From positions 1 to 23,975 of IMG/VR virus record IMGVR_UViG_3300037204_000013: a DNA stretch of 23,975 nucleotides; one strand, 5' to 3'. Positions 2,862-22,846 of this stretch are shown here, piece by piece. Both the position numbers and the translations under genes were made by a program. Within the stretch, counting starts at the first letter, position 1. Each line of letters opens with the position of its first letter. The notes under the pieces are model-generated. The model made no database searches, was not told where the DNA came from, and worked only from the letters and a program-made list of their open reading frames with translations. The stretch comes from a virus.

Positions 2862-5272
2862 TGGCGACAGTCACCCGTAACGGGAACGGCCGGCATCAGG
2901 ATGTGATCCTCCCGGCAATGGTCCGCAGCGTAGACCGTGCCGCCCGAGCCGAAAACAAAGCGGCTCGGATGGGGCAGCGCAGCCGCCGTGCCGCCCCGTT
3001 GCGTGTAGGTCCCTCCAACCGGCAGGTAGTCACAGACGACCTGTATGGCGAGAGCGGCACGAGCGGCCTGAAGCAGTACGGCGGGTTCGTCCTTGAGGAG
3101 TGGCTCCAGAAGCTCCGGGGAAGATATGGCGCGTGGGCTTACCGCGAAATGATGGACAACAGTCCGATCGCGGCAGGCATCATTTTCGCGATCAAGATGC
3201 TCGCCCGCCAGGTCGAATGGACCATCGAAGACGATGTGGAGATGAGCGGCCTACCGTGCGGCTTCATTGAATCCTGCCAGCACGATATGAGTCACACCTG
3301 GGGGGACTTCGTCAGTGAAGTTCTCTCCATGATCGGGTACGGCTATGCGCCGCATGAGACGGTGCTGAAGCGCAGGGAAGGCCCCAATCCCCTCCCGAGC
3401 TTCGCTGAAGCGACGGACGAGCAGAACGTCAGTGCCACCACCGAAGACGTAGACGAACCGCCGTCCTCGAAATACAACGATGGCCTCATCGGCTGGCGCA
3501 GGCTCCCCGTCCGTAAACAGGAAACGATCTTCCGGTGGATCTTCACCGGCTACTCCGGTATACGCGGTGTCGAACAGATCGACTGGCATGGTGGGAAGCA
3601 CAAAATCCCGATCGAGAAGATGCTGCTATTCAGGACCGAAACGACGGGCAACAACCCTGAAGGTCGTAGTCTATTGCGGTCTGCGTGGACCTCATATTTC
3701 GCCTTGCAGAACATTCAGGCGATCGAGGCGATCGGGATCGAGCGTGACCTCGCTGGGTATCCCGTCTTGACACCCCCTGAAGGTGTGGATCTGAACGCGC
3801 CGGGTAACGAAGAGATCTATGAGGTCGCGAAGGAACTCGTGACGGGTATCCGCCGTGACGAGGACGAGGGCGCCGTCCTCCCGTCTGCCGGCTGGGTGCT
3901 GGAGTTGATGTCGAGCGGCGGCTCAAGGCAGATCGACACGAACGAAATCATCCGTCGCTACGAGCAAAGGATGACCGTGAGCCTCCTCGCGGACTTCCTG
4001 ATTCTGGGGCAGGACGGGATGGGTTCGTTTGCGATGGTGGACATCAAGAGCGAGCTGTTCGGCGTCGCCGTGGATGTGATCCTCGACATGGTGTGCGAGG
4101 TGTTCAACCGGTACGCCATCCCCCGCCTGCTTGCGTTGAACAACTTGAAGCCCGAGAAGCAGCCCCGCCTCTGGCACAGCTCGGCGGGCAGGATGGATCT
4201 TCGGACCGTCGGGGAATTCCTCACAAACCTGAGCTTGGCTGGTGCGCCGATCCCATGGACAGAGCCATTGATGGAGCATTTGTTCAGGGGCGGTGCGCTC
4301 CCGAAGCCCGAATTCGACGTGAAGCCGATCGTCCCGCCGATGCCGAACGAAGCGGCGCATGACACGCAGTGGAGGCCATCATGGGGGTCGGAGAACACCC
4401 CCGCGAAACTCCCGCCCTCCGGCAAAGAACACGAGCGGGTAGCGAAGGCCCAAGGCCCCGAAGCGAAGACACTCCCCGAGGGCACCGCGCTGCACGTCGC
4501 GCCAGTCCTCGCACAGCGTGCACAAACCCTCTCCACCCAGCTTGAGCGCGAGATCGTAGGTGCCCTCACCCAGCTCGGCTCCGAAGCAGCGAGATCTTAT
4601 GCAGCCGCTCGCGGTGAAGGCGATACCCCCCGCCAAGTCGAGCGTCTGGTCGGGAAAGTCATGGCGCAGGCTGGCGTCTCAAGCTGGGTACGCGACAGGC
4701 TCACCCCGCTGCTGCGCAACCATGCCCAGCGGGTCGCAGGCGAAGTCAGCCGCGTCTTGGCGCAGCAGACCGGCAGGGCAGTGAGTATTGGTCCTGCTGA
4801 GATCGCTCGTATCCAGGCCAGCGCGGGCAGCCACCTGAAAATCCGTGACATCGAGCCACAAGTCCGGGAAGCCGTGCACCGCGTGATCGTGGACGGCCTA
4901 CGAACTGGCGAGAGCCCGGTCGTGACCGCTGAACGTATCCGGGAGGCTGTTCCCGAGGGCCGCTTCGTGCATGCTGGGGTTGCTTGGCGTGCGCAGTTGA
5001 TAGGCCGGGACCAGACTTCCCGGATGATGCGCGAGGGAAGCCTTGCTGCCTATGCCGCGATGCCCGACGTGAAACATGTCGAATCCGTCGAGGGCGTTCA
5101 CGGCGCTCCCTCGACGGACCCCGTATGCGTCGGTCGCTCAGGAGAAGTGGTGGCGCTCGCGACCGCCCGCCTGGAGGCCCGCTCAGCGCACCCCTTGTGC
5201 AGCCTGGGTTTTAATCCTATCGTGGGTGGTCCCGCGCCAGCGCACGCTGAGCCCCAGCTGCTCGCCGCGTGA
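2861..5272 (+). CDS. Portal protein fused to a MuF-like head morphogenesis domain
   Basis: The 803-residue product has two parts. Residues about 60-480 are portal-like: a helical N-terminal clamp region with MMDNSPIAAGIIFAIKM (97-113), the segment TETTGNNPEGRSLLRSAW (259-276), and the stem/crown region around IIRRYEQRMTVSLLADFLIL (363-382). This resembles the DUF935/Mu gp29-type portal class. After a Pro-rich linker (490-550) comes a long helical region and a C-terminal block with GRDQTSRMM (715-723), Val-x-Cys756 and HPLC780, the layout of Mu F-like (SPP1 gp7-like) minor head proteins. Portals form the dodecameric DNA vertex; MuF proteins aid assembly or DNA ejection. Usual portals are 400-550 residues, so the extra 300 are well explained by fusion. 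The frame is unbroken. The stop overlaps the next start (GTGA). Confidence 0.88.
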   Translation: MATVTRNGNGRHQDVILPAMVRSVDRAARAENKAARMGQRSRRAAPLRVGPSNRQVVTDDLYGESGTSGLKQYGGFVLEEWLQKLRGRYGAWAYREMMDNSPIAAGIIFAIKMLARQVEWTIEDDVEMSGLPCGFIESCQHDMSHTWGDFVSEVLSMIGYGYAPHETVLKRREGPNPLPSFAEATDEQNVSATTEDVDEPPSSKYNDGLIGWRRLPVRKQETIFRWIFTGYSGIRGVEQIDWHGGKHKIPIEKMLLFRTETTGNNPEGRSLLRSAWTSYFALQNIQAIEAIGIERDLAGYPVLTPPEGVDLNAPGNEEIYEVAKELVTGIRRDEDEGAVLPSAGWVLELMSSGGSRQIDTNEIIRRYEQRMTVSLLADFLILGQDGMGSFAMVDIKSELFGVAVDVILDMVCEVFNRYAIPRLLALNNLKPEKQPRLWHSSAGRMDLRTVGEFLTNLSLAGAPIPWTEPLMEHLFRGGALPKPEFDVKPIVPPMPNEAAHDTQWRPSWGSENTPAKLPPSGKEHERVAKAQGPEAKTLPEGTALHVAPVLAQRAQTLSTQLEREIVGALTQLGSEAARSYAAARGEGDTPRQVERLVGKVMAQAGVSSWVRDRLTPLLRNHAQRVAGEVSRVLAQQTGRAVSIGPAEIARIQASAGSHLKIRDIEPQVREAVHRVIVDGLRTGESPVVTAERIREAVPEGRFVHAGVAWRAQLIGRDQTSRMMREGSLAAYAAMPDVKHVESVEGVHGAPSTDPVCVGRSGEVVALATARLEARSAHPLCSLGFNPIVGGPAPAHAEPQLLAA

Positions 5273-6369
5273 AGGTCCTCGCCTTCCCTGCCGACGACTC
5301 AGCATGCGGCGCCTACCGGATCATCTACCCCGCCCAAGCCTCCGGGGTCGATGTACGCGTAGAAGCGCCTCTGTGGCCCCGTGGAGGCCTCCTGGGGGAA
5401 CGTGCCGTACAGATCGACCCCGAGGACACGGATGTGGTCGTCTGCCACAGGCCGAGCTACCCGGCCCTAGTGGACGAGCTGGAACGCCTCCAGGCAGACG
5501 GGCATGCCCTGGTGGTGGACGTAGACGATGATCTCTCCCGCCCTCACCCTGAGCATGCCTGGGCGCGCGGGGAGCGCGGCGCCACCGCTGCCGTCTGCCA
5601 GAAACGCGCCTGCGACCTCGCGGATCTCGTGACCGTGAGCACTCCTGCGCTCGCTGAGCGTTATGGCGCTCATGGGCGTGTGGTGGTCCTCCCGAACCGT
5701 GTCCCGGAGAGGCTGCTCCCCATGCCGCGTGAGAGCGACGGTAGGACCCTCGGCTGGGGCGGCCTGGCATCGGGGCACCCTGGGGACCTCCAAGCCGCTC
5801 ACGGGGGTGCTGGGAGGGCTCTCGCGGGCAGCGGATGGCGGTTCCTCGTCATAGGGCCAGCAGAAGGGGTACGGATAGGCCTCGGGCTCACGCAGGCTGT
5901 GGACGCCACGGGAGGCCTATCCCTGGAGGGCTACCACGAAGCGCTCGGGTCGCTCGATGTCGGGATCGCCCCGTTGAACCCGAGCCCCTTCAACCGCGCC
6001 AAGTCCGGACTGAAGTGCCTGGAGTACGCGGCGAGAGGCGTCCCCTATGTGGCGTCGCCGAGCCCGGAGTACACACTGCTCGCCGGGGAAGGCGTCGGCC
6101 TGCTCGCCACGGACGCTCTCCAATGGCGCCGGCACCTGACGGACCTGATGCAGGACGAGACTCTCCGTGAGCATCATCGTGAACACGGTCGAGCCGTGAT
6201 AGCCGAGAAGCACACCTATGAGCGGCACGGGCATTTGTGGCCGGAGGCTTGGGAGAGCGCGATGCGTAACCGCGATCAGCGAAGGAGCGGCATGTGTTCG
6301 GAGCGTCCAGTTTCGCGGAAGCGTTCTTTGGTGGGGCCTGGCAGCGTGCGAAGGGAGGCAGCGCCTTGA
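5269..6369 (+). CDS. GT4-like glycosyltransferase
   Basis: A 366-residue protein with a GT-B-type layout. The N-terminal half ends its Rossmann-like part with VVDVDDDL (82-89) and VTVSTPALAERY (121-132). The C-terminal half holds SPFNRAKSGLKCLEYAARG (239-257), a close match to the donor-binding K-S-x2-K-x-LE-Y-A-x-G signature of GT4-like enzymes; Lys245 and Glu252 are the expected phosphate and ribose contacts. The GTG start overlaps the portal stop. The last 30 residues are Arg-rich and overlap the next gene, so they are probably dispensable. Its place among capsid genes suggests it adds sugar to virion proteins, as known for some actinobacteriophages; cell-surface or DNA modification is also possible. 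Donor and acceptor cannot be read from the sequence. Confidence 0.87.
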   Translation: MKVLAFPADDSACGAYRIIYPAQASGVDVRVEAPLWPRGGLLGERAVQIDPEDTDVVVCHRPSYPALVDELERLQADGHALVVDVDDDLSRPHPEHAWARGERGATAAVCQKRACDLADLVTVSTPALAERYGAHGRVVVLPNRVPERLLPMPRESDGRTLGWGGLASGHPGDLQAAHGGAGRALAGSGWRFLVIGPAEGVRIGLGLTQAVDATGGLSLEGYHEALGSLDVGIAPLNPSPFNRAKSGLKCLEYAARGVPYVASPSPEYTLLAGEGVGLLATDALQWRRHLTDLMQDETLREHHREHGRAVIAEKHTYERHGHLWPEAWESAMRNRDQRRSGMCSERPVSRKRSLVGPGSVRREAAP

Positions 6370-6662
6370 GAGTCAAAATCACCGCAGCGAAAGCCGGGAT
6401 CATCTGTCGCGGCCCCTCACGCTGGCTGGTCCGCAACCGCACGAACGGTGCCCCCATTTTCCTCGAAGTCGGCAACTACCCCGAGACAGGGGAACCCGTG
6501 CCCGTAGCCACCGAAGCGACGGGCTATGAAATCCCCAAAGGAACCTCCGTTGGCTCCCCCCTGGAAATCGGGCTTGGTCCCGAAGAGTCCCTGACCGGCA
6601 TCGTCAAGACCGGCGAAGGTGAACAGGAACTCGAACTCCTGCGGGTCAGCCCCCACTTCTAA
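6294..6662 (+). CDS. Small beta-rich virion-associated protein (two possible starts)
   Basis: The reading frame supports 122 residues from GTG at 6294 (ribosome site GAAGGAG at 6281-6287) or 98 residues from TTG at 6366 (ribosome site GGGAGG at 6353-6358, and a TTGA overlap with the glycosyltransferase stop). The first 14 residues, MFGASSFAEAFFGG, resemble the Gly/Phe-rich N-terminus of small phage structural proteins. The body alternates strands and turns (FLEVGN, GYEIPKGTSVGS, LTGIVKTGEGEQELELLRV), like small head or tail decoration proteins with a beta-sandwich fold. No catalytic motif is seen. Starting at 6294 gives an unusually long 76-base overlap with the upstream gene. Confidence 0.7.
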   Translation: MFGASSFAEAFFGGAWQRAKGGSALRVKITAAKAGIICRGPSRWLVRNRTNGAPIFLEVGNYPETGEPVPVATEATGYEIPKGTSVGSPLEIGLGPEESLTGIVKTGEGEQELELLRVSPHF

Positions 6663-6666
6663 GCCC

Positions 6667-7158
6667 GTGCACCCCTCGGTCATGGCGTTCCTCGGGGACG
6701 CGGTGAGCCGCTACGGCCTCTCCTGCCGCTCCATACTTGAGGCGGGCTCGCTGAACGTCAACGGCTCCCCACGCGGCCTGTTCGCAGGCGCCTACCACGG
6801 CATCGACCTACAAGCAGGGAAGGGCGTGGATGAGGTCCTCCCCGCGTCCGAGGCCGGGGCGAAATACCCCGGGCGATTTCAGGTGATCCTCAGCACAGAG
6901 ATGCTGGAGCATGACCCTGAGCCGTGGCTCTCACTCGCCTCCCTCTCCCAATGTGTACCACCGAGGGGGCTGCTGCTGCTCACGGCCCGTGGCTTCGATC
7001 AGCGAGGATCGTTTCCTGTTCACGGCTACCCCTTGGACTGCTGGCGTTTCTCGTGTGACGGCATGCGAGAGCTTCTAAAGCGCACGGGCTGGGAGCCCCA
7101 AAGCGTCCTGCCTGACCCCGATTGCCCCGGCGTGTTCGCTGTCGCCACGCGCCCCTAA
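6667..7158 (+). CDS. Class I SAM-dependent methyltransferase
   Basis: A 163-residue protein with the class I methyltransferase core. Motif I is SILEAGSLNVNGS (22-34), the acidic end of strand 2 is YHGIDLQAG (43-51), and the motif IV region is STEMLEHDPEPW (76-87), followed by GLLLLTARG (101-109) and a C-terminal GVFAVATRP. I chose GTG at 6667 because the family typically begins MHP-x-VMAF, and the frame upstream (from 6619) overlaps the previous gene in a different frame. There is no clear ribosome site, so coupling to the gene ending at 6662 is likely. Phage enzymes of this subgroup often sit beside glycosyltransferases; the substrate, such as a sugar, protein or small molecule, is not known. 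Confidence 0.87.
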   Translation: MHPSVMAFLGDAVSRYGLSCRSILEAGSLNVNGSPRGLFAGAYHGIDLQAGKGVDEVLPASEAGAKYPGRFQVILSTEMLEHDPEPWLSLASLSQCVPPRGLLLLTARGFDQRGSFPVHGYPLDCWRFSCDGMRELLKRTGWEPQSVLPDPDCPGVFAVATRP

Positions 7159-12959: not shown

Positions 12960-15107
12960 ATGGCCCGGGAAACCAAAAAATACTCGTGCTTCCCGGGCGA
13001 AGCGAGTTTGCAGGAATGGACGGTCGAAGGCGGCACCCTAACGGAATACTTGGCGAAGACCACCGAAGAAGGCACGGAACCCTCAGAAACGGTGAAACTG
13101 AAAACGGCTTCTGAAGCGAAGAAGATACAGACCACGAAATTCGTGTTGCCGTCTGGCCTCAAAACGGCGTTGGAAGCCGGGGCTGTGGTAATAGCGGCCA
13201 CGGTCCATGTGAACGCTAAGGCCACCAAAAAAGCCAAAAACCTTCGCATTGGCTTCGTCACCCCCGAACTCTTTCAGACGTATGAAGCGACGACCACGCA
13301 GGGCTGGTTCTCGCTTAGCCTCACCCGCACCCAGGCTGAAGAACTCTCCAGCAAAGCCTCGCTCGAAGGGCTCGTTCTAAGCGCGGAACACAAAGGCGAA
13401 AGCGTCAGCCTCTTCGAGGGACCATACCTTTCCGTTGAAGTGGAAACGGAAACGGCTAGGGTGGTTCGCAGTAAAGGGTCAGCGAAAACCGCGAGCGGCG
13501 GGGAAGCCTCCATCACGGTCACCTCGTCAAACGCGGGCGACTGCTTGATCGTGGGGATCTCAACGGGCATAGCCGTTGCCGGTGCTACGGCAGTGAGCGA
13601 TAATCAAAGCTCTACCTATGTGCTGGACGCCGAATGGAATGATGGGATACACCCCACCCTCCAGGTCTGGAAAGCCAAAACGCCCACCGCTGGCGTGACC
13701 GAAGTCAAAGCAACCGGGCTCCCCACTACGGCGACGGTGAACCTTACGGTCGTGGAGACCTCAGCTATTGGTGTGAAGGACACGAGTGGCTCCGGGTCTG
13801 GCATCACGACTCTGGCGGCAACGGAAATCGAAGTGAGCACGGCCGCGAAACTTCAGGCCAGCAAAGGAGACTTCGCTATCGCCTGGTTCGCGAGCACGGG
13901 CTCGGGGGCGACGTTCACGCCCGGCGGCTCGATGACAGCCATCTCGGGTGCTAGCCAGACCGGCTTGTCTGTCGGCGGGGAGTACATATCGACGCCCGCT
14001 GAAGGCGCGACGTTCACTGCGAAGGGGACGTTCTCGGCCGCAGGGACATGGAGCGGTGCGGTGATCGCCTACAAGGTGGTCAGCTCCGAAGAAGTCTTCT
14101 CCGGGACTGCAGCTCTGCGTGGCGGTGCCGTGTTGAAGGCTACGGGGGGAAAGACGGCAGCCTCCACTGCCATCGTGACGGCGGCATCGAGAATGGTTGG
14201 GGCTGGAGGGAAGGCCGGTTCTGGCGCATCTACGCTCCGCGCTGGGGTGCCCGGGAGTGCCTCGGGTGCGAAGCTCGCCACCGGCTCCAGCGGGGTGCGG
14301 CCAGCATCGGTTCTCACGGGCTCTGGCTTGAAGGCGGCGGAAGGCGCTCCCGTGCTACATGGTGCAGCCGCACAGGCCACCTCGGGCAGCAAGAGCTTCC
14401 GGGCGCCTGCGAGCGTCCTCTCAGCGGCCCGTCAGGGTGCCTCTGGCGCCAAGAGCGCCACCGGGACGGCATCCGTCCCTTCCGGGGGGCGTGTGGCGTC
14501 TGTGGGGGGGAAGCTGGTGTCTGCGGTGGCGGCCCTTCTCGCCGGGTCACGTGTCACAGGCTCCGGGGCGAAGGGCGGACTCGGGGAAGGCCGGCTCCGT
14601 ACGGGCCTCGAGCTTCTCGCGCAGGGCACAGAACTGGTGTTCGCGGGGGTAGCGAGCCTACGCTCCGGCGGCTCCCTAGGCGCGACGGGAACGAAGTCGA
14701 CGCAGGGCGAAAGCCATGCCCGCACAGCACCCCACATTGCAGCCCTTGGCTTCAAGGCGATCCAGGGGCAGGCGCAGACACGGACCGCCGCAGAGACAAC
14801 CGTGCAGGGAGCGAAGGCGGGGCTCGGCGAAGGAACGATCCGGGCAAGCGCGCGTACTGGCGCGACAGGCATTAAGGGGGGCATCGGTAGCGCGTCCCTG
14901 CGTCTCAGCTCGCGGACGCTGCTGACGGGCGCGAAGACCGGGATAGGGCATGCGTTGCTGCGGGCTGCCGTCTGGCTCCTCCCTCCCGAGCCGCAGCCGG
15001 TGATCATTCCTCCCCTGTTTGCCTATGCGGCCCCCGTCAGCCAGCCCTTCGACGCCTACGCCGTGAGCGAGCAGGGTCTCTACAGCTATGCGGGGAGCAG
15101 CCAGTGA
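12960..15107 (+). CDS. Large virion adhesin-like protein with 20-residue repeats
   Basis: A 715-residue protein. Residues 1-165 resemble a jelly-roll/carbohydrate-binding-like N-terminal domain of minor tail proteins (an extended set of strands with GWFSLSLTRTQAEELSS at 115-131). Residues 166-375 look like an Ig-like/adhesin domain of alternating strands. Residues 379-659 are fourteen 20-residue repeats, listed separately, followed by a partial fifteenth copy. The last 40 residues carry a Pro-rich hinge (PPEPQPVIIPP) and three F/Y-A-Y-A-type segments. Such composition suits an elongated tail or neck appendage. The ATG is 6 bases after the previous stop; the ribosome site is weak. The stop overlaps the next gene (GTGA). 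No enzyme motif is visible. I do not know its receptor. Confidence 0.78.
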   Translation: MARETKKYSCFPGEASLQEWTVEGGTLTEYLAKTTEEGTEPSETVKLKTASEAKKIQTTKFVLPSGLKTALEAGAVVIAATVHVNAKATKKAKNLRIGFVTPELFQTYEATTTQGWFSLSLTRTQAEELSSKASLEGLVLSAEHKGESVSLFEGPYLSVEVETETARVVRSKGSAKTASGGEASITVTSSNAGDCLIVGISTGIAVAGATAVSDNQSSTYVLDAEWNDGIHPTLQVWKAKTPTAGVTEVKATGLPTTATVNLTVVETSAIGVKDTSGSGSGITTLAATEIEVSTAAKLQASKGDFAIAWFASTGSGATFTPGGSMTAISGASQTGLSVGGEYISTPAEGATFTAKGTFSAAGTWSGAVIAYKVVSSEEVFSGTAALRGGAVLKATGGKTAASTAIVTAASRMVGAGGKAGSGASTLRAGVPGSASGAKLATGSSGVRPASVLTGSGLKAAEGAPVLHGAAAQATSGSKSFRAPASVLSAARQGASGAKSATGTASVPSGGRVASVGGKLVSAVAALLAGSRVTGSGAKGGLGEGRLRTGLELLAQGTELVFAGVASLRSGGSLGATGTKSTQGESHARTAPHIAALGFKAIQGQAQTRTAAETTVQGAKAGLGEGTIRASARTGATGIKGGIGSASLRLSSRTLLTGAKTGIGHALLRAAVWLLPPEPQPVIIPPLFAYAAPVSQPFDAYAVSEQGLYSYAGSSQ
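14094..14975 (+). repeat. Tandem 60-bp-period array encoding 20-residue repeats
   Basis: Fourteen consecutive 20-residue units and one partial unit cover residues 379-672 of the 715-residue protein. Gly is at unit position 18 in all 14 full units, Lys at position 20 in 13 of 14 (398, 418, 438 and so on to 538, then 579-659; Glu558 replaces one). Gly is often at position 4 and Arg at position 9 in about 10 of 15. One unit, the tenth, is one residue longer. The DNA copies are diverged, so selection appears to keep the protein pattern. Confidence 0.88.
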
Positions 15108-15442
15108 ACGCAGGGACCGTCATCTGCCGCTTCTGCCTCTGCCTACGACCCCTAACCAAGGCAGAGGAACGCGTCTTCAACGAAGGTGGAGAACTTCCTC
15201 CCGAAGTGGGCTACAAACCCGCGACCGTGCGGTTCATCGAACGCGCCCCCGACGGAGAAGCCATCGTGAACCCAGACCTGGAAGAAGAGGCCGTCGGAGT
15301 GTATGAGATCGAGATCGAGGCAGTCGAGCCTGGGGTGTGGCGTTGGGAAGGCCAAGGCCTCAACACGGAAGGCGAGATCGTGGCCTCTACCGGGCCGCAG
15401 CATTTCTTCATCGAGGCGAAGGTGCAGGACATCTACGCATGA
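15104..15442 (+). CDS. Ig-like virion protein
   Basis: A 112-residue protein with a GTG start overlapping the stop of the repeat protein. The second half is a typical phage Ig-like/beta-sandwich pattern: ATVRFIERAPDGEAIV (40-55), then VGVYEIEIEAVEPGVWRWEGQ (64-84). The 'G-V-Y-x-I ... P-G-V-W-R-W-E-G' strand pair is common in small accessory proteins of high-GC phages that decorate tails or heads. The N-terminus has three cysteines (CRFCLC). Its stop overlaps the next start (ATGA). It resembles the product at 21939 in general plan. Confidence 0.7.
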   Translation: MNAGTVICRFCLCLRPLTKAEERVFNEGGELPPEVGYKPATVRFIERAPDGEAIVNPDLEEEAVGVYEIEIEAVEPGVWRWEGQGLNTEGEIVASTGPQHFFIEAKVQDIYA

Positions 15443-15921
15443 GCGCCCCGGTACTCGACTGGAAAGGCGCAGAGGTCCGCCGCAGGGTAGCGGCCGCATG
15501 CGCCGTCGGAGTCGATGCCACGATGGAGGATGCGGCTGGGAAAGCCCGTGCTGCCCACCCTGCCTATCCACCAGCATCGGAGCCCGGGGAGCGTTATGCG
15601 ACCCGCACAGGCGACCTGACGGCATCTATCGGCGTCAAAGACCCGGCCGTAGAGATCGCCGCCCATGTGGTTGGGGTATGGGGTGCAAGCGCCGACGACG
15701 CCCTCTATGTGGAGATCGGCACCTCACGCAAGGGCTCCGGGGCACCACGAGCACAGACCCGCGCGTTGACCGGGGCGAGCGCTGGCATGTGGGCTATCCC
15801 CGGCCCGTCTGACCCTCCGCAGATGAGTGCCCGCTACTACCTGCGTCCTGCCGCGTCTGAGGCATATTCCCTGCTGGGTTTGAGGATCGCTGCTGCTTAT
15901 CAAGGAACGGAGCTTGGATGA
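15439..15921 (+). CDS. HK97 gp10-like tail completion / neck protein
   Basis: A 160-residue protein from the ATG that overlaps the previous stop. It carries an N-terminal helix, a YATRTGDLTASIGV segment (53-66), YVEIGTS (90-96) and ARYYLRPAASEAY (131-143). The sequence order of an E-x-G-T strand followed by a 'A-R-x-x-L-R-P-A' helix is the hallmark of the HK97 gp10 family, which helps close the neck or join the tail. Members are usually adjacent to the stopper and tail terminator; here it is embedded between appendage genes, about 3.3 kb from the stopper. Its stop overlaps the tailspike start (ATGA). Confidence 0.83.
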   Translation: MSAPVLDWKGAEVRRRVAAACAVGVDATMEDAAGKARAAHPAYPPASEPGERYATRTGDLTASIGVKDPAVEIAAHVVGVWGASADDALYVEIGTSRKGSGAPRAQTRALTGASAGMWAIPGPSDPPQMSARYYLRPAASEAYSLLGLRIAAAYQGTELG

Positions 15922-18527
15922 CGACCTTTGACAAACACGCAAACGGGGCGCTCAGCTCCGTGGCGGTGGCCCCTTCCCCTGCGACCAGTGGTACCTCGAT
16001 GTCCTTGGAAGCGGGGGGTGAAGCGGTGATGCCCACGCCGCCGTTCAACGCGACGGTGTGGCCTGCGAAAGTGGGGGTGGAACCGGGGAACTTCGAGATC
16101 GTCCGCGTCACGAACATCACTGCGGGTGTGGCGACGATCGAACGCAAACAAGAGGGCACGAGCGCCCGGACGATCCAGGTGGGCGACCAGATCGCAGACA
16201 CGATCACCGTCAAGGACATCACCACACTTGAGGTGGCGATCTCGGCGGTGGAAAACGGCTCAGGGTTGCCGCCTTCGGTGGAAAGAAGCAGTGCTGCGCC
16301 GCCGTCGGGGGACGAAACGGGAGCAACGGATACGGCTGCGTTGGCGGCGTCAATGCCAGCCAAAGGCGTTCTGACCCTGCGGCCCGGCGCATACTACGTC
16401 ACGGCTCTACCCACATGCGGTCCCGAACAGGCGCTCAGGGCCTTCGCACAGACCGTGGTCTACATGGTCGGGACAGGCACTTGCCTGCGGATTCACAATC
16501 CGGCATTCCCCGCTGAAGGTGGGGAAGCAACGCTAGTCAAAAACATGGCAGGCCAGTTCGGCGGATTTATCATTGACGGTTCCAAAGCTGGCGCGGGCTC
16601 AACCGGTCTATGGGTGGGGGACATTGAGTGCATAGATCTCAGCACGATCCTTATTCGCGACTTCAAAGGCACTGGCTCTAAAAACTGGCTTTTCAAGTCT
16701 GAAGTAGGCTGGTGTGAGCGCATGAACATCAGGAATTGCCACTCCCTGAATGGCACCGAACTAGTGACATTCGCCAACGGCGGCGCGGGCACTGGTTCGT
16801 TTGACTACTCGTATATCGAAATGGGGTTGTCCGGCTTCTCAAAACAGGACGGCCTCGTTATGGAAGACGGGGTGGCGTTCCTTGGCTGTGATCTGCGTAT
16901 CGTCGGTAACTTTACATCGGGCGTTGGCAACACAGGCACCGTTTGGCGGCTAGGAACAGACAACAGTGCGGTATTCCTCCGTAGCAAACTGATGCTGGAG
17001 GTGGAGTGCAACGGCAGCACGGGTACGGGGCACACGACGATCAGCATGGGGACCGCCGCAGAATGCTACCTAGCGGGAATGATCGTTTTCCAAAACAACA
17101 CCATCGCATTTCAGGCGGGGAATGCTGCACAGCCACGCTTCAGTTTCACGGGCTATTCGCCTACCACATCATTGATCTCTGAAATAGGTCTTCCTGCGGT
17201 TACTAGGCAGGGTAGTGTTGGGCTCGGCTCTAATACGGTTCTCGGCAGCGACCACGGTATCGTCGGCGACGGCACAACGAACGACACCGTCGCGCTCACC
17301 GCAGCGCTGACGGCTGCCTATGAACTCGCGGCGAACACGACAGGTAAAGCCGTGCTCGATCTCTCGATGTACAACACGATCCTCGTGACGGGCGCGGTTA
17401 AACAGGACGCCTTCGGCGCGAACAGTCAGATCATCCTGCCCTATATCGCCGATGGGGAAGAACATGAAAACGTCGGCGTCACTATTCGAGGCAAGCCCGG
17501 CATCGTCAGTCGCCTACATTGGGCCAAAGCCGGAGTGCCGCCCCGCGGTGGGACCACGATCTACAGCACCGTCACGGGCGAATACACAGCCGAACACGGC
17601 ATCCCCTCCATCATCGGCGGACCGACCGGCGTCGCAGGCGAACTCTTCAGCCGCCTGAACCTCAAGCTTGAACATCTCACCTTCCGTCAGCCGGAAAACC
17701 CGAGCCTCACCTGCGTCAACGCGAGCCACCTCAACGCGTTCGAGCACGACAACATCGTCTGCTGCACCGACGCGCGGGGCATCACCGAAACGGCCTGCAC
17801 GCACCCGTTCGCGATCGGGATCATCTATCCCGTTGTGAACACTCGCGGGCCGATCCTCGCTCGCGGCCACAACTTCATCACCGGCTATTACGCAGGAGTA
17901 GAACTCGGCGAGAACCTCCAGTGCTCAGGTGCGATCGAGCTAATGATGTGCACCGTCGCGGTCGCGCACTCCGCAATCTTCCACAGCAACTACATTGCAT
18001 GGCTGGAGACCTTGAAATGCGTCTACCACCATGCGCAGGTCTCGCCGACTGGGGGCGCTGAAGCGATTACGCATAACTGCGCGCTGACGGTCGGCCAGTG
18101 GGACATCGAAGACGCGAAAGCCGCCGTCACGTTCACGACCAAATATCATGTTTGGGACGGCAGCCAATTCCTTGCCTTGCAGGGACCGTTCGATCAAGTC
18201 GTCCCCGCAGGCGCAGGCACGGCACCGGAAATACTGACGCCGGAACCGGGGCTCGGAGCGTGGGGCGTAAAGGTCCGCTATATACGTACCCAGGTAGGAA
18301 ACATCACTGCGCCATCGGTTGAAGCGTCCGGGAAATTCGTCCGCAACCTGCATTGGGCACCCGTGGCTGTCTACGTGAACCCTAACGGCGCGACGATCAC
18401 GGAAATCAAGGTGAGCGGCACCGTACAGGGAGTCACCAGCGGCCTGGTGATAGTCCCGGCGGGATGCACCATCAACCTGTTCTATACAGGGGGTCCCCCG
18501 ACCTGGAAATGGGTCGTGATCGCGTGA
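15918..18527 (+). CDS. Tailspike-like protein with two beta-helix segments
   Basis: An 869-residue protein. Residues 1-104 match a tail attachment module widespread in phages (VAPSPATSGTSMSLEAGG at 17-34, PPFNATVWPA at 41-50, IERKQEGTSART at 74-85). Two right-handed parallel beta-helix entries follow: GATDTAALAAS (135-145) and the classic GDGTTNDT (450-457), with long Gly/Asn-rich strand regions after each. The C-terminal 75 residues (PVAVYVNPNGATITEIKV to WKWVV) form a common phage beta-sandwich cap, probably for trimerisation. Beta-helix tailspikes usually bind and cleave polysaccharide. No catalytic triad can be assigned from sequence. GC drops over residues 235-434. It starts at the ATG overlapping the previous stop. 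Confidence 0.87.
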   Translation: MTTFDKHANGALSSVAVAPSPATSGTSMSLEAGGEAVMPTPPFNATVWPAKVGVEPGNFEIVRVTNITAGVATIERKQEGTSARTIQVGDQIADTITVKDITTLEVAISAVENGSGLPPSVERSSAAPPSGDETGATDTAALAASMPAKGVLTLRPGAYYVTALPTCGPEQALRAFAQTVVYMVGTGTCLRIHNPAFPAEGGEATLVKNMAGQFGGFIIDGSKAGAGSTGLWVGDIECIDLSTILIRDFKGTGSKNWLFKSEVGWCERMNIRNCHSLNGTELVTFANGGAGTGSFDYSYIEMGLSGFSKQDGLVMEDGVAFLGCDLRIVGNFTSGVGNTGTVWRLGTDNSAVFLRSKLMLEVECNGSTGTGHTTISMGTAAECYLAGMIVFQNNTIAFQAGNAAQPRFSFTGYSPTTSLISEIGLPAVTRQGSVGLGSNTVLGSDHGIVGDGTTNDTVALTAALTAAYELAANTTGKAVLDLSMYNTILVTGAVKQDAFGANSQIILPYIADGEEHENVGVTIRGKPGIVSRLHWAKAGVPPRGGTTIYSTVTGEYTAEHGIPSIIGGPTGVAGELFSRLNLKLEHLTFRQPENPSLTCVNASHLNAFEHDNIVCCTDARGITETACTHPFAIGIIYPVVNTRGPILARGHNFITGYYAGVELGENLQCSGAIELMMCTVAVAHSAIFHSNYIAWLETLKCVYHHAQVSPTGGAEAITHNCALTVGQWDIEDAKAAVTFTTKYHVWDGSQFLALQGPFDQVVPAGAGTAPEILTPEPGLGAWGVKVRYIRTQVGNITAPSVEASGKFVRNLHWAPVAVYVNPNGATITEIKVSGTVQGVTSGLVIVPAGCTINLFYTGGPPTWKWVVIA

Positions 18528-18596
18528 CTGCCGCTTTGCGTGACAGCAGGCATACCCAATCTTGAGAACTCGACCCAACTCGAAACAGGAGGCGCT

Positions 18597-19016
18597 ATGC
18601 CCGACCCACTGACACCCCTGGGGCGCCGTGTCCTCGGGAACCTGCCCGCATGGTCCTCTGATGAGGCGTGGGTCATCGAACAGGAGGGCGGACCCGAGAG
18701 CAGCGTCCGCAGCCATGCCCTGGGAGAGATCGCTCAGGCTCTCGCCAGCAACCCTGCCGCTGGGACTCTCGGGTCGAACGGGCCGCTCACCGAAGGCGAG
18801 ACAGAAGGCGCGCTCATCGCCTTGCAGGAAGCAGGCCTCGCCGAACACATCGACGGGCCGACGGACATCGAGGGCATCACCCACGAGAATGCCTGGCGGA
18901 TGACGCAGGCTGGTCTTGAGGCGCTCAACGCGGTACAGGGTTTGCAGGATGCCCCTCCGGGTGCCGTGACGATGCCGTTGCATCCGGCCCAGGTCACCGA
19001 CAACGCGAGAGGATGA
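18597..19016 (+). CDS. Winged-helix-like small protein
   Basis: A 139-residue protein with a CAGGAGG ribosome site before the ATG at 18597. It has a winged-helix rhythm: TPLGRRVLGNLP at the start, EGALIALQEAGLAEHIDG (62-79), then ENAWRMTQAGLEALNA, i.e. a helix followed by a 'G-L-x-E' strand and a 'W-R-x-T-x-x-G' wing, as in transcription regulators and some phage proteins. The C-terminal 20 residues are Pro-rich. It lies inside the appendage region, not with regulatory genes. It could be a chaperone or DNA-binding protein; I cannot decide. Its stop overlaps the next start (ATGA). Confidence 0.65.
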   Translation: MPDPLTPLGRRVLGNLPAWSSDEAWVIEQEGGPESSVRSHALGEIAQALASNPAAGTLGSNGPLTEGETEGALIALQEAGLAEHIDGPTDIEGITHENAWRMTQAGLEALNAVQGLQDAPPGAVTMPLHPAQVTDNARG

Positions 19017-19495
19017 CCATGACCCGTCTACGCACCCACCTTACGATCGGCTGCTACCTCGCGTTCCTCGCGCTCACTGGGGGTTTCGGGAAACTCGTGA
19101 AAGCCGGTGCCCTGTCCTGGGCGGTCGGGAAGGCCGAAACGATCTACAAAAAACCCGCCAAAGCATACCTCGCGCTATGCACCGTCGAAGTGAAATACTC
19201 CAACACGGGGGCAACGATCACAGAGGCCACCGGGGCGACTGGCTATTCCCGGAAGGAAATCACGTTCGCGGAAGCCGTCGAAGGAGAAACGGCAGAAATC
19301 TACAACGCCGCTGAAGAAACGATGGCTGCGATCACGGCAGGAGAAGCGAAAGTGATCGGCTGGGCGCTCTGCGACTCCCCAGAAACGGGGAAAGGCAACC
19401 TCATCGCTTTCGGGACATGCACGGAAACCGTGATCAGCAAAACACAGTCCCCTCCGACTGTTGCTGCTAAAGCATTGAAGGTGGAACTAAAATAG
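19013..19495 (+). CDS. Tail-fibre-like beta-sandwich protein
   Basis: A 160-residue protein of the small phage fibre family. After a hydrophobic N-terminal stretch (residues 8-24, GCYLAFLALTGGFGK region), the pattern is KAYLALCTVE, TGATITEATGATGYSRKEIT, then FAEAVEGETAEIYNAAE, IGWALCDSPETGKGNLIAFG and a final AAKALKVELK. The 'GYSR' start and the 'IGWALCDS...GN-LIAFG' pair are typical. Length is slightly longer than most members. The codons CTA AAA TAG at its end sit where the next frame begins (see findings). The N-terminal hydrophobic stretch is probably part of the fold rather than a signal peptide. Confidence 0.75.
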   Translation: MTMTRLRTHLTIGCYLAFLALTGGFGKLVKAGALSWAVGKAETIYKKPAKAYLALCTVEVKYSNTGATITEATGATGYSRKEITFAEAVEGETAEIYNAAEETMAAITAGEAKVIGWALCDSPETGKGNLIAFGTCTETVISKTQSPPTVAAKALKVELK

Positions 19496-20274
19496 AGGGG
19501 TCGGGACAGCCCCCGGCATCCAAAGCCAAATACGGGGCTGCGGCTGCCCAAACCATCACCGCCTTTCCATCCACCCTCTCCGGGGCACGGACCGTGCTGT
19601 TCGTGCATGGCGGGAGCTGGGAAACGCAGAACGAAGAAGTCGGCGAGGAAAAAGAAGCACTATCCCTCCAAGAACAAGGCTTCTGCGTGTTCAGCATGAA
19701 CTACACCGAGGCGAAAAAAAGCCAGCCCGCGTTCCCTATCCAGGTGACCGACATCGAAGAAGCCGTCAAATGGATACAGGAACACGCCAGCGAATACAAC
19801 GGCAACTCTGCGCTGCTGAGCATCATCGGGGGTTCCTCGGGCGGGAACATCAGCCTCCTCGCGGTCGAGAAAATGGCGGCTAGCACGTTCCGGTCCTCCG
19901 TGACGCTGAGTGCGATCACGAACTTCCCAACGATCATCACCTATGAGGAAGAACGCCACGCCAAAGGCGAAAGCGCCCAGCTCTACCAGGCCATCCCCCA
20001 GGCTCTCGGGTTCGCCACCATCCAAGAAGTCACGAAAGCCGCTGCCGAAGAATGGTCCCCAACCGACCACATCCCAAGCACGATGCCTCCCTGCTGGATA
20101 GCGGGCAGCCATAGCGAGAGCGAGGTCCCCTTCTCCCAGCAGGCCGAAATGGCTGCCGCTCTCGAAGCGAAAGGACAAACCCCGACGTTGGTCGAAGCGA
20201 CCGGAGGCGGGCACAGCTTTGAGTATTGGCGGCAGGTAGAAAAGAAAATCGTGGAATTCATTAGAGCCCACTGA
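19492..20274 (+). CDS. Alpha/beta-hydrolase (esterase-like), start uncertain
   Basis: The frame is coding from at least 19492. It includes an N-terminal strand region (KYGAAAAQTITAFPST) followed by RTVLFVHGGSW with the HGG oxyanion motif. The first canonical start, GTG at 19594, would delete that strand. Counting from 19594, the nucleophile elbow is GGSSGG (Ser82), the acid is probably Glu175 in GSHSESEVP where most family members have Asp, and His207 is in GGGHSFEYW. This is the HSL/esterase type of fold, about 260 residues. In a phage appendage region it may deacetylate or de-esterify surface polysaccharide. Upstream in frame is ATA at 19492, overlapping the previous stop (ATAG), and ATT at 19474. 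The stop shares a base with the next start (TGATG). Confidence 0.83.
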   Translation: MEGSGQPPASKAKYGAAAAQTITAFPSTLSGARTVLFVHGGSWETQNEEVGEEKEALSLQEQGFCVFSMNYTEAKKSQPAFPIQVTDIEEAVKWIQEHASEYNGNSALLSIIGGSSGGNISLLAVEKMAASTFRSSVTLSAITNFPTIITYEEERHAKGESAQLYQAIPQALGFATIQEVTKAAAEEWSPTDHIPSTMPPCWIAGSHSESEVPFSQQAEMAAALEAKGQTPTLVEATGGGHSFEYWRQVEKKIVEFIRAH

Positions 20275-21935
20275 TGACCCTCCTTCTCGGCAGCCCGACA
20301 GAACCCTCCGGCACCCTGACGCTGGTCGAAGGGCACGCGCAGTCCTGCCAGTACACCGCTGAAGGGAACGGCACCCTCCACGAAGTGGTGCTGCATCTCA
20401 CCGAAGGCTCCACCGCGAAATCTCTGCGGGTAGCGATCCTCACGAACAACGGGGAAACACCCAAATCGGAACTGCTCGGCCCCGAAGGCGTCCTGACCGC
20501 CTCCCTCTCCACGGCCGGGGAATACAAAGTCACCGGGCTTGAAGCTGCTGTGGTGGGAGCCGATGTGTACTGGATTGTGATCCTCCCGATCGGCGGGGAT
20601 CTCAAACTGAAACAGAAGGGCAGCGGCGGTACTCGTACGAAGATCGCGAGCAACACCAGCCTCACCAAAATCTCAGAAATCGCAGAAGAAGCCTGGGGCA
20701 CCAATGGGGCACACGGCCCCCTCCGCCTCGAAGGTCTGGGGGAAGGCTCGGGTGCCGTCCTCGGCCTTGTAGCGGCACGCAGCGAAAGCGCGGCCACCGG
20801 GGCGATCCAGGCGCAAGGTCCCGTCAGCCTTCCTCTCGTCAAGGCTACCGCCGCGAGCGCGAGCGCCCTGGAAGTGATCGCCCGAGGGCAGCTCCTTCTC
20901 GGGAGCACCAGCGAAGCGACGGGCGCGGTCACGTTCGCTGCTGGTCATGCCCAGGCGATCGAGTACACAGCCGAGAAAACGGGCACCATCGAAGAGGTCC
21001 TGTTCCACACCGCAGGCATAGGGTCCACGGCGACATCGGTTCGGGTAGCTGTCTTTGCGAACACGGGGCCGATCGGGGAAAACCTCATCGTGGGGGAATT
21101 CACGGTCGGCGAAGAAGAAATCCCGCAAGCCACGATGCTAGGCCCCGAAGGCGTCCTCACACGCTCCTTTAACGAAGCGAAAGCCTATGAAGTCGGGGGT
21201 CTGGAAGCGCGGGTCATCGATGGGGAAGCCTACTGGATCGTGGTGTTGCCGATCGGGGGCACCCTCGAACTGAAATGGAAAGGATCCGGCGGCACCTTCA
21301 GCCGTGCGGCGACCAACACATCGCTCACCCGCATCTCAGAAATCGCAGAAGGTGCCTGGGGAGCCAACGGAGCACACGGCCCGATGCGCCTCGAAGCCTA
21401 CGGACGCCTAGGTGCCGTCCTCGGGGTCGCCCCCGCCACGGTGCAAAGCTCTGGGGCGCTCGCGGTGTCGGCTCCCACACGCATCGTCTTTGCCCCCGGG
21501 CTGAGCCTCTCTTCGGGGAAAGGTGCGATCAACGGGCAACCCGCCTCCCTGCCGCTCTCCGCCGCCCTCAGCCTCAGCGCTGCCACGGCGACCATCAGCT
21601 CGCCTCCTGCGGCTGAAATCATCTTGTTCGCAGCCTCGGAGGTCAGCGGCGGTGTGGACACCATAGCTACGCGTATCTCGCTGCCGCTCTCCCCAGCCCC
21701 AGCGGAAAGCGCAGGTGGCCTGGAAGTCCGTACACGGGTCCTGCCGTTGCATGCTGGGACCTCCAACAGCACCAGCAGCCTCCAGGTGACAGTTTCCACC
21801 CGGGTAGGGGTCCTTGAAGCGTCTGGGGAATCCTCCGGGTCGCTGCGCCTGGATCACAGCGGGGGCGCCCAGGCTACCCCTACCTACGCGAAGATCCATC
21901 TCGCCTCGACATCCGGCGCACTCCATGGAGGATGA
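20274..21935 (+). CDS. Large appendage protein with duplicated domain and repeat tail
   Basis: A 553-residue protein with two copies of a roughly 160-180-residue beta-rich domain (residues 4-164 and 208-384), each running from LLGS through EGHAQ/AGHAQ, LGPEGVLT, YWIV-LPIGG and SEIAE to AVLG. The segment between them and the tail (385-553) are Ser/Ala/Gly-rich with loose repeats of about 20-23 residues (for example GGLEVRTRVLPL and SSLQVTVSTRVGVLE). No enzyme motif is seen. It overlaps the hydrolase by one base and is probably an elongated virion appendage partner. Its tail resembles, but is less regular than, the 20-residue array at 14094-14975. Confidence 0.75.
   Translation: MTLLLGSPTEPSGTLTLVEGHAQSCQYTAEGNGTLHEVVLHLTEGSTAKSLRVAILTNNGETPKSELLGPEGVLTASLSTAGEYKVTGLEAAVVGADVYWIVILPIGGDLKLKQKGSGGTRTKIASNTSLTKISEIAEEAWGTNGAHGPLRLEGLGEGSGAVLGLVAARSESAATGAIQAQGPVSLPLVKATAASASALEVIARGQLLLGSTSEATGAVTFAAGHAQAIEYTAEKTGTIEEVLFHTAGIGSTATSVRVAVFANTGPIGENLIVGEFTVGEEEIPQATMLGPEGVLTRSFNEAKAYEVGGLEARVIDGEAYWIVVLPIGGTLELKWKGSGGTFSRAATNTSLTRISEIAEGAWGANGAHGPMRLEAYGRLGAVLGVAPATVQSSGALAVSAPTRIVFAPGLSLSSGKGAINGQPASLPLSAALSLSAATATISSPPAAEIILFAASEVSGGVDTIATRISLPLSPAPAESAGGLEVRTRVLPLHAGTSNSTSSLQVTVSTRVGVLEASGESSGSLRLDHSGGAQATPTYAKIHLASTSGALHGG
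20283..21425 (+). repeat. Internal domain duplication
   Basis: Copy A lies at 20283-20765 and copy B at 20895-21425, separated by about 130 bases. Shared protein anchors in the same order are GHAQ, LGPEGVLT, PIGG, KGSGGT, NTSLT, ISEIAE, NGAHGP and AVLG. Copy B carries an insertion of roughly 15 residues (around NLIVGEFTVGEEEIP). The copies are clearly homologous but diverged. Confidence 0.9.
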
Positions 21936-21938
21936 ACC

Positions 21939-22367
21939 GTGAGCAACCTGCGGACACGTCGAAGGATGGCCATGGAGGAGGCCTCAAGCGTCAGCCTGGA
22001 CACGGTCACTGCGTCCGCGACGAACACGATCACGGTCAAGCGGAACGACACATGGCCCCCCGTCCGGTTCACCCTGGAAGAACGCAACGAAGAATCCGGT
22101 GAAAAGGAACCGATCGACCTCACGGGCGCCCTGAAAGTGCTGTTCATCATGCGTAGCGAAACGGCGCTCGTCACGGGCACCTGCAAACTCACTCACGCCA
22201 CCGCAGGCTCAGGGGAATACGTCTGGGGTCTTCTGGATACCAAAGAAGACGGCACCTACCGTGTCGAATTCGAGATCGAATGGACCGCCACACACTTCCA
22301 GTCCGTCCCGAACGAAGGCTACCTCCAGATCATCGTCTCCGAAGACTTGGGCGGGAACGCACCATGA
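21939..22367 (+). CDS. BppU-like Ig domain protein
   Basis: A 142-residue protein from GTG 21939, 3 bases after the previous stop, with GGAGGAT before it. After a basic N-terminus it has TITVKRNDTWPPVRFTL (31-47), IDLTGALKVLFIMRS (59-73), a GEYVWGLLDTKEDGTYRVEF stretch and a final NEGYLQIIVSEDLGG. This is the pattern of the N-terminal domain of baseplate upper protein-like (BppU/DUF2479) proteins, an Ig-like fold found in phage receptor-binding complexes. It probably links or decorates the appendages encoded just upstream. The stop overlaps the next start (ATGA). Confidence 0.78.
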   Translation: MSNLRTRRRMAMEEASSVSLDTVTASATNTITVKRNDTWPPVRFTLEERNEESGEKEPIDLTGALKVLFIMRSETALVTGTCKLTHATAGSGEYVWGLLDTKEDGTYRVEFEIEWTATHFQSVPNEGYLQIIVSEDLGGNAP

Positions 22368-22846
22368 CATTCACACGCCTCGCCCCCAAAACCCTCTCCA
22401 CGAGCCCCGCACCCACCCTTGAGCCCGAAGGCGCCGTCCTCGGAGACCCCCTGGAAGCGGTCGCGGCCTATCTGAAGGAACAGATGGGGGAAACCGTCAA
22501 TGGGAACGTCCTTCGCCCCGAACTGCCTGAAAGCCTGGACCCCGCTATGCCGACTGCGGCGATCGTGATCATGCCGGCAGGCGGCGGGAAACTCATGGGC
22601 GCCAACCGGCTCCCCGTATTCGACCCGATGATGGACATCCTCTGCTACGGCCCCACACGGCAGGATGCGGACGATATCGCCCGTGAAGCTGAGTATGTCC
22701 TGCGTGAAATGCAGATGGTGTTCATTCGTGGGCTCTGGCTGTATTGGGCGAGGATCGCGAGCGGCATGATGCCCCGCGTCGAGCCGGAGGTCTTGTGGCC
22801 CTACACGGAGTTCTCTGTCCAGGTCCTAGCGACGCAACTTCTCTGA
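22364..22846 (+). CDS. Tail terminator protein
   Basis: A 160-residue protein from the ATG overlapping the previous stop. It contains DPLEAVAAYLKEQMG (27-41), then VLRPELPESLDPAMPTAAIV, IMPAGGGKLMGANRLPVFDP, MDILCYGPTRQDADDIARE and VEPEVLWPYTEFSVQVLAT. The 'DI-CYG-T-x-x-D-A' region and the W-P-x-x-x-x-x-x-V ending are typical of phage tail terminators, which cap the tail tube and join the neck. The next structural genes are a small acidic protein and the tail tube, the normal order. Confidence 0.85.
   Translation: MTFTRLAPKTLSTSPAPTLEPEGAVLGDPLEAVAAYLKEQMGETVNGNVLRPELPESLDPAMPTAAIVIMPAGGGKLMGANRLPVFDPMMDILCYGPTRQDADDIAREAEYVLREMQMVFIRGLWLYWARIASGMMPRVEPEVLWPYTEFSVQVLATQLL

Follow-up and report, generated by a model that had tools for sequence, protein, structure and literature searches.

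The question raised by this locus is where translation begins in a phage hydrolase gene that follows a tail fibre gene and has no standard start codon at the junction. The hydrolase frame lies at -1 relative to the fibre frame; it is closed by a TAA at 19468-19470 and then stays open through 19471-20274, and the first ATG, GTG or TTG within it is the GTG at 19594. This much had been read from the sequence in a preliminary description of the locus, and it holds. The same description offered three solutions, i.e., a programmed frameshift, initiation at an ATA codon, or a truncated product starting at the GTG, and these are the right ones to weigh. The fibre/hydrolase pair is real, complete and of a known kind, and its start is unusual; initiation at ATA, coupled to termination of the fibre gene, is the reading that we tentatively favour.

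The virus record and the surroundings of the locus

The window, by which we mean the whole stretch of 23,975 bases that was analysed, comprises positions 1-23,975 of the virus record IMGVR_UViG_3300037204_000013. It contains the structural gene cluster of an uncultured tailed phage (terminase, portal, protease, and major capsid protein); RNA family and tRNA searches of the window gave no Rfam match and no tRNA. The capsid protein used as a query retrieved two relatives among viral_contigs, the IMG/VR contigs L002 (72% identity) and L003 (67% identity), neither of which has a gp80 match, while L003 is also devoid of a BD-FAE match. Scans of viral_contigs with the hydrolase, the fibre, the terminase, the downstream protein and the large fibre found no close relatives, and tblastn at 1e-5 against phage records found no close homologue of gp80 or of the hydrolase. 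A group of phage esterase matches (H41-H62) was too weak to be used for synteny.

In L003, the genes at 15337-15918 and 22280-22843 have homologues that adjoin each other; the whole fibre/hydrolase block at 15918-22367 thus looks like a cassette that was inserted or exchanged. Elsewhere in the window, a glycosyltransferase gene and a methyltransferase-like gene are found at 5269-7158, amid structural genes, with the portal on one side and the head protease on the other. Two long, internally repetitive proteins, one encoded directly downstream of the hydrolase and the other at 12960-15107, have no family match and are probably fibre or appendage proteins.

The fibre gene and the hydrolase gene

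The coordinates of the features discussed below are collected in Table 1.

Table 1. Features of the fibre/hydrolase junction and its neighbours (window coordinates)
Feature	Position	Strand	Evidence or remarks
gp80-like tail fibre protein, 160 aa	19013..19495	+	PF23140, Pfam 7.1e-11; ATGA overlap with preceding gene
Ribosome-binding-site-like AAGGTGGA	19478..19485	+	6 nt ahead of ATA 19492, inside fibre gene
A AAA TAG: lysine codon able to re-pair after a -1 slip, then fibre stop	19489..19495	+	sequence
Proposed start codon ATA overlapping TAG, geometry as in ATGA overlaps	19492..19494	+	sequence, window junctions
Alpha/beta hydrolase (BD-FAE / esterase type), about 260 residues	19492..20274	+	Pfam, PHROG, AlphaFold, Foldseek, alignment columns
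Predicted hydrolase strands 1-3 (residues 10-13, 21-25, 32-38)	19519..19605	+	AlphaFold; Y14/P26 conservation
First GTG in hydrolase frame (V35), unlikely start	19594..19596	+	alignment, AlphaFold
Downstream repetitive fibre-like protein	20274..21935	+	ATG overlaps hydrolase stop (TGATG); no Pfam/PHROG match

The fibre protein matches the Gp80 fibre family with 43 bits (cut-off 27), its residues 43-157 corresponding to positions 18-127 of the 128 in the profile. The match thus runs to the penultimate profile position, and the fibre domain is therefore complete at its own TAG. The gene ends, as the preliminary description had it, with CTA AAA TAG (GAA CTA AAA TAG in full, the stop occupying 19493-19495).

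The hydrolase gene, as judged from its sequence, is likewise real. It is matched by Pfam BD-FAE (PF20434, 5.8e-25, 88.5 bits at a cut-off of 26.8) and by the esterase family phrog_3341 (1.1e-18). Alignment columns identify the oxyanion motif HGG at residues 39-41, the nucleophile S115 in a GxSxG context, and H241. The position of the catalytic acid is taken by Glu209 (codon 20116-20118), whereas in 58 of 61 homologues it is Asp; this is a conservative change that would still supply the acid expected in the esterase family. The AlphaFold model of the product read from 19492 has a pLDDT of 85.1 and a pTM of 0.87, and its Foldseek matches include the rumen lipase 6nkf (5.2e-16), Thermogutta Est2 (5ao9), and the GH43-CE protein 6mly.

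How much of this fold precedes the GTG decides whether that codon could serve as the start. A scan of genomes for the conserved motifs gave 80 bacterial esterases of about 22-30% identity, which are informative on the N-terminus only. Tyr14 and Pro26, present in 55 and 57 of 61 homologues, respectively, are both retained here and are both encoded ahead of the GTG. In the model the first two strands and half of the third fall in the same region, with block means of pLDDT between 80 and 94 over residues 11-40 and of 63 for residues 1-10. Codon usage in 19495-19593 fits the hydrolase frame better than the other two (+1.2 bits vs -19.2 and -6.5), a fit that is weak in absolute terms. Translation from the GTG would yield a truncated hydrolase of 226 residues, beginning within strand 3 and deprived of both conserved residues, from a codon that is the earliest standard start of the frame and that has a ribosome-site energy of -5.0 but sits 98 nt past the fibre stop. 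The family profile by itself would tolerate this loss, as the upstream part raises its score by only about 5 bits (138.2 with it and 133.4 without); because this test is weak, the argument for the longer N-terminus relies on the conserved columns and the structure model. On these grounds the hydrolase most probably needs the region ahead of the GTG, and we regard the truncated product, one of the possibilities raised in the preliminary description, as very improbable. The same description had correctly put the N-terminal region upstream of the GTG, but extended it too far, through RTVLFVHGG; the GTG encodes the V of RTV, and LFVHGG comes after it. It had also listed ATT 19474 and ATA 19492 as the only codons available for initiation. 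Both exist, but ATC 19555 is there as well, within predicted strand 2 and with no ribosome site noted.

Proposed initiation at the ATA codon

The ATA at 19492-19494 starts one base ahead of the fibre stop, which is exactly the arrangement of a -4 overlap. The window has six further junctions with overlaps of this type (ATGA or GTGA), at 5269, 15104, 15439, 15918, 19013, and 22364, and three more with -1 overlaps. What sets the present junction apart is the codon itself, ATA in place of the ATG, GTG or TTG of a standard coupled pair. The -4 overlap is the commonest one in prokaryotes, and it supports coupled reinitiation (PMC10666635; PMC6728339).

The upstream sequence AAGGTGGA is predicted to pair with the anti-SD at -7.1 kcal/mol, an energy at least equal to that of 61% of the assigned starts in the window (median -6.3) and reached at 8.9% of random positions. 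Against its role in initiation it can be said that the match may simply reflect the codons for K-V-E. Two other observations likewise count against an ATA start. AUA is a very poor start codon in most bacteria, where IF3 discriminates against such codons, and all comparable split phage hydrolases that we found start with ATG. On the other hand, AUA starts are documented for infC, ccpN and citZ of S. aureus, and AUA reporters built on ccpN and citZ reached about 10% of the AUG level, rising for ccpN to as much as 30% in rich medium (PMC13009471).

In the mechanism that we propose, the two reading frames would form a translationally coupled pair of tail fibre and hydrolase. A ribosome that ends the fibre at its TAG would restart, or a new one would start, at the overlapping ATA, with AAGGTGGA guiding initiation. 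The product would be a hydrolase of about 260 residues, complete and separate from the fibre protein, with the N-terminus (f)M-EGSGQPPASKAKYG, and made at a level probably below the one that ATG would yield. The enzyme probably acts on the virion, where it would strip ester groups off the host surface polysaccharide. Coupled initiation at ATA is the best-supported of the readings, if held with some reserve, because the GTG is unlikely, the geometry of the -4 overlap is exact, the spacing of AAGGTGGA is suitable, and AUA starts are known to occur. It is also favoured by other phages in which a hydrolase of the fibre region overlaps, start on stop, with the preceding gene (-4 in Faja, -1 in Barco, Mellie, CheeseTouch and REQ2). 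In this respect the suggestion of initiation at ATA from a GAAGGTGGA ribosome site, made in the preliminary description, has turned out to fit best.

If ATA initiation is true, the locus would clearly exemplify, for phages, the use of a rare start codon within a 4-base overlap, and a means of holding the enzyme at a low ratio to the fibre; the true start of the hydrolase would then escape gene finders.

Other readings of the junction

A different account of the missing start is loss or misreading. Either the virus or the metagenome contig may carry a point change, or an indel of one base, that removed a normal start codon or split what was an in-frame fusion. The run of A at the junction lends itself to indels, the window derives from an IMG/VR-type virus record, and a startless frame that opens right after a stop in the preceding frame is a usual sign of frameshift or start-codon loss. 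Moreover, fused relatives of such fibre-hydrolase genes exist, and a standard start would arise, with the fibre stop kept, from certain one-base substitutions close to that stop. The simplest version of this, an ATG misread as ATA at 19492, was rejected because an ATG at that place would erase the fibre stop. What speaks against a sequence change in general is that both reading frames are otherwise intact, with the fibre domain complete at its TAG; we nevertheless consider such a change the strongest competitor of initiation at ATA, if less probable than it.

Programmed -1 frameshifting, in which the lysyl-tRNA in the P site would slip from AAA to the overlapping AAA with TAG in the A site, would give a fraction of the fibre protein a fused hydrolase, with a G/S/P-rich linker (EGSGQPPASKAK) between the two. 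Re-pairing on A AAA beside the stop codon would be perfect, as the preliminary description stated, and the absence of a standard start from the junction, as well as the linker-like appearance and lower confidence (pLDDT 63) of the first ten residues of the hydrolase, suit this explanation. So does the existence of fibre-hydrolase fusions in other phages, namely gp24 of ArV2, detected in virions by LC-MS/MS with 11 peptides (PMC4205034), and gp33 of Seahorse; the homologue of ArV2 gp24 in phage Faja consists of two ORFs in -1 relation. The precedent for a fusion is thus genuine, but the fusions known so far are single-frame genes, and the split pair of Faja has an ATG.

The usual signals of frameshifting, too, are largely wanting. 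The site reads A_CTA_AAA and not X_XXY_YYZ; since CTA is unable to re-pair with ACT, AAA alone can do so and there is no tandem slippery heptamer. Downstream folds are not significantly better than those of shuffled sequences (z of -1.05 and -0.37); the former, at -24.1 kcal/mol in 63 nt, is stable in absolute terms, the calculation applying to structures other than pseudoknots. SD-type stimulators of -1 frameshifting are usually located 10-14 nt from the slip site, whereas the SD-like site here ends a few bases before AAA. The A-AAA context is rare in the window (14 of 7106 codons) and occurs at one of its 24 gene ends, that of the fibre, which is suggestive but, as one instance, no proof. 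When 397 genomes from the phylum of Geodermatophilus amargosae (locus L081) were searched for PF23140, six matches were obtained; among those read, one (L094) has a clear collinear neighbour, and in this single case the distant prophage gp80 gene ends with GCA TAA, with no A-AAA-stop. Transcriptional slippage, considered separately, was rejected on general knowledge, a run of four A being too short.

Taken together, these points make frameshifting improbable. Somewhat more doubtful still is its most specific form, in which A-AAA-TAG would be a stop-associated -1 signal that provides a minority of fibre subunits with a covalently joined esterase, as a frameshift counterpart of the one-frame fusions of the ArV2 type. 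If frameshifting is true, the locus would show how phages decorate only some of their fibres with an enzyme. Our order of preference, which is a matter of judgement and not of computation, thus places initiation at ATA ahead of a sequence change or error, followed by the frameshift fusion and, at a long distance in plausibility, by initiation at the GTG.

Comparison with known systems

A structure search against viral proteins pointed to Arthrobacter phages. A close likeness in gene arrangement is seen in Faja (MH834612), where a LamG-type fibre protein, gp31, is followed by an esterase, gp32, with a 4-base ATGA overlap, and where, as in the window, a G-rich ribosome site is located within the end of the fibre gene. 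Unlike the window, the Faja hydrolase starts with ATG, the fibre stop is TGA, and the fibre domain is LamG instead of gp80; the hydrolase belongs to another subfamily, having no significant BLAST similarity to the one described here and a profile probability of 28%. A run of five G immediately precedes the gp31/gp32 overlap in Faja.

In ArV2, the 495-residue gp24 joins a fibre-type domain to an alpha/beta hydrolase in one continuous frame, with no frameshift; its N-terminal half matches Faja gp31 (38% identity), and its C-terminal part Faja gp32 (43%). Accordingly, the two Faja genes (L102:22589-24066), in -1 relation to each other, correspond to the single ArV2 gene (L103:1721-3208). Seahorse gp33, too, is encoded in one frame and carries its hydrolase part at the C-terminus, and hydrolases in -1 overlap with the preceding gene are found in the Gordonia phages Barco, Mellie and CheeseTouch and in the Rhodococcus phage REQ2. 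The hydrolases of these Arthrobacter, Gordonia and Rhodococcus phages, including ArV2 and Seahorse, are of a different subfamily from that of the window and therefore count as analogues, not as members.

With infC, ccpN and citZ of S. aureus the window shares an AUA codon preceded by a ribosome site; the S. aureus starts, in contrast, were mapped experimentally and the strength of their extended SD motifs is stressed, whereas the window site is moderate, and in the parts of that work drawn on here no phage gene or 4-base overlap is described alongside them (PMC13009471). The likeness to dnaX and other A_AAA_AAG sites consists in a lysine codon after A that is able to re-pair in the -1 frame; the window differs from them in having no tandem heptamer and no supported stimulator structure, and in that its next codon is a stop. 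Among these systems, the locus looks like a split fibre/hydrolase pair with an odd start. Fused and split pairs both occur, as ArV2 gp24 is fused and Faja has the same protein in two parts; whichever reading of the present junction is right, Faja and ArV2 show that fibre-hydrolase proteins switch between the fused and the split state, a switch that is open to study in cultured phages.
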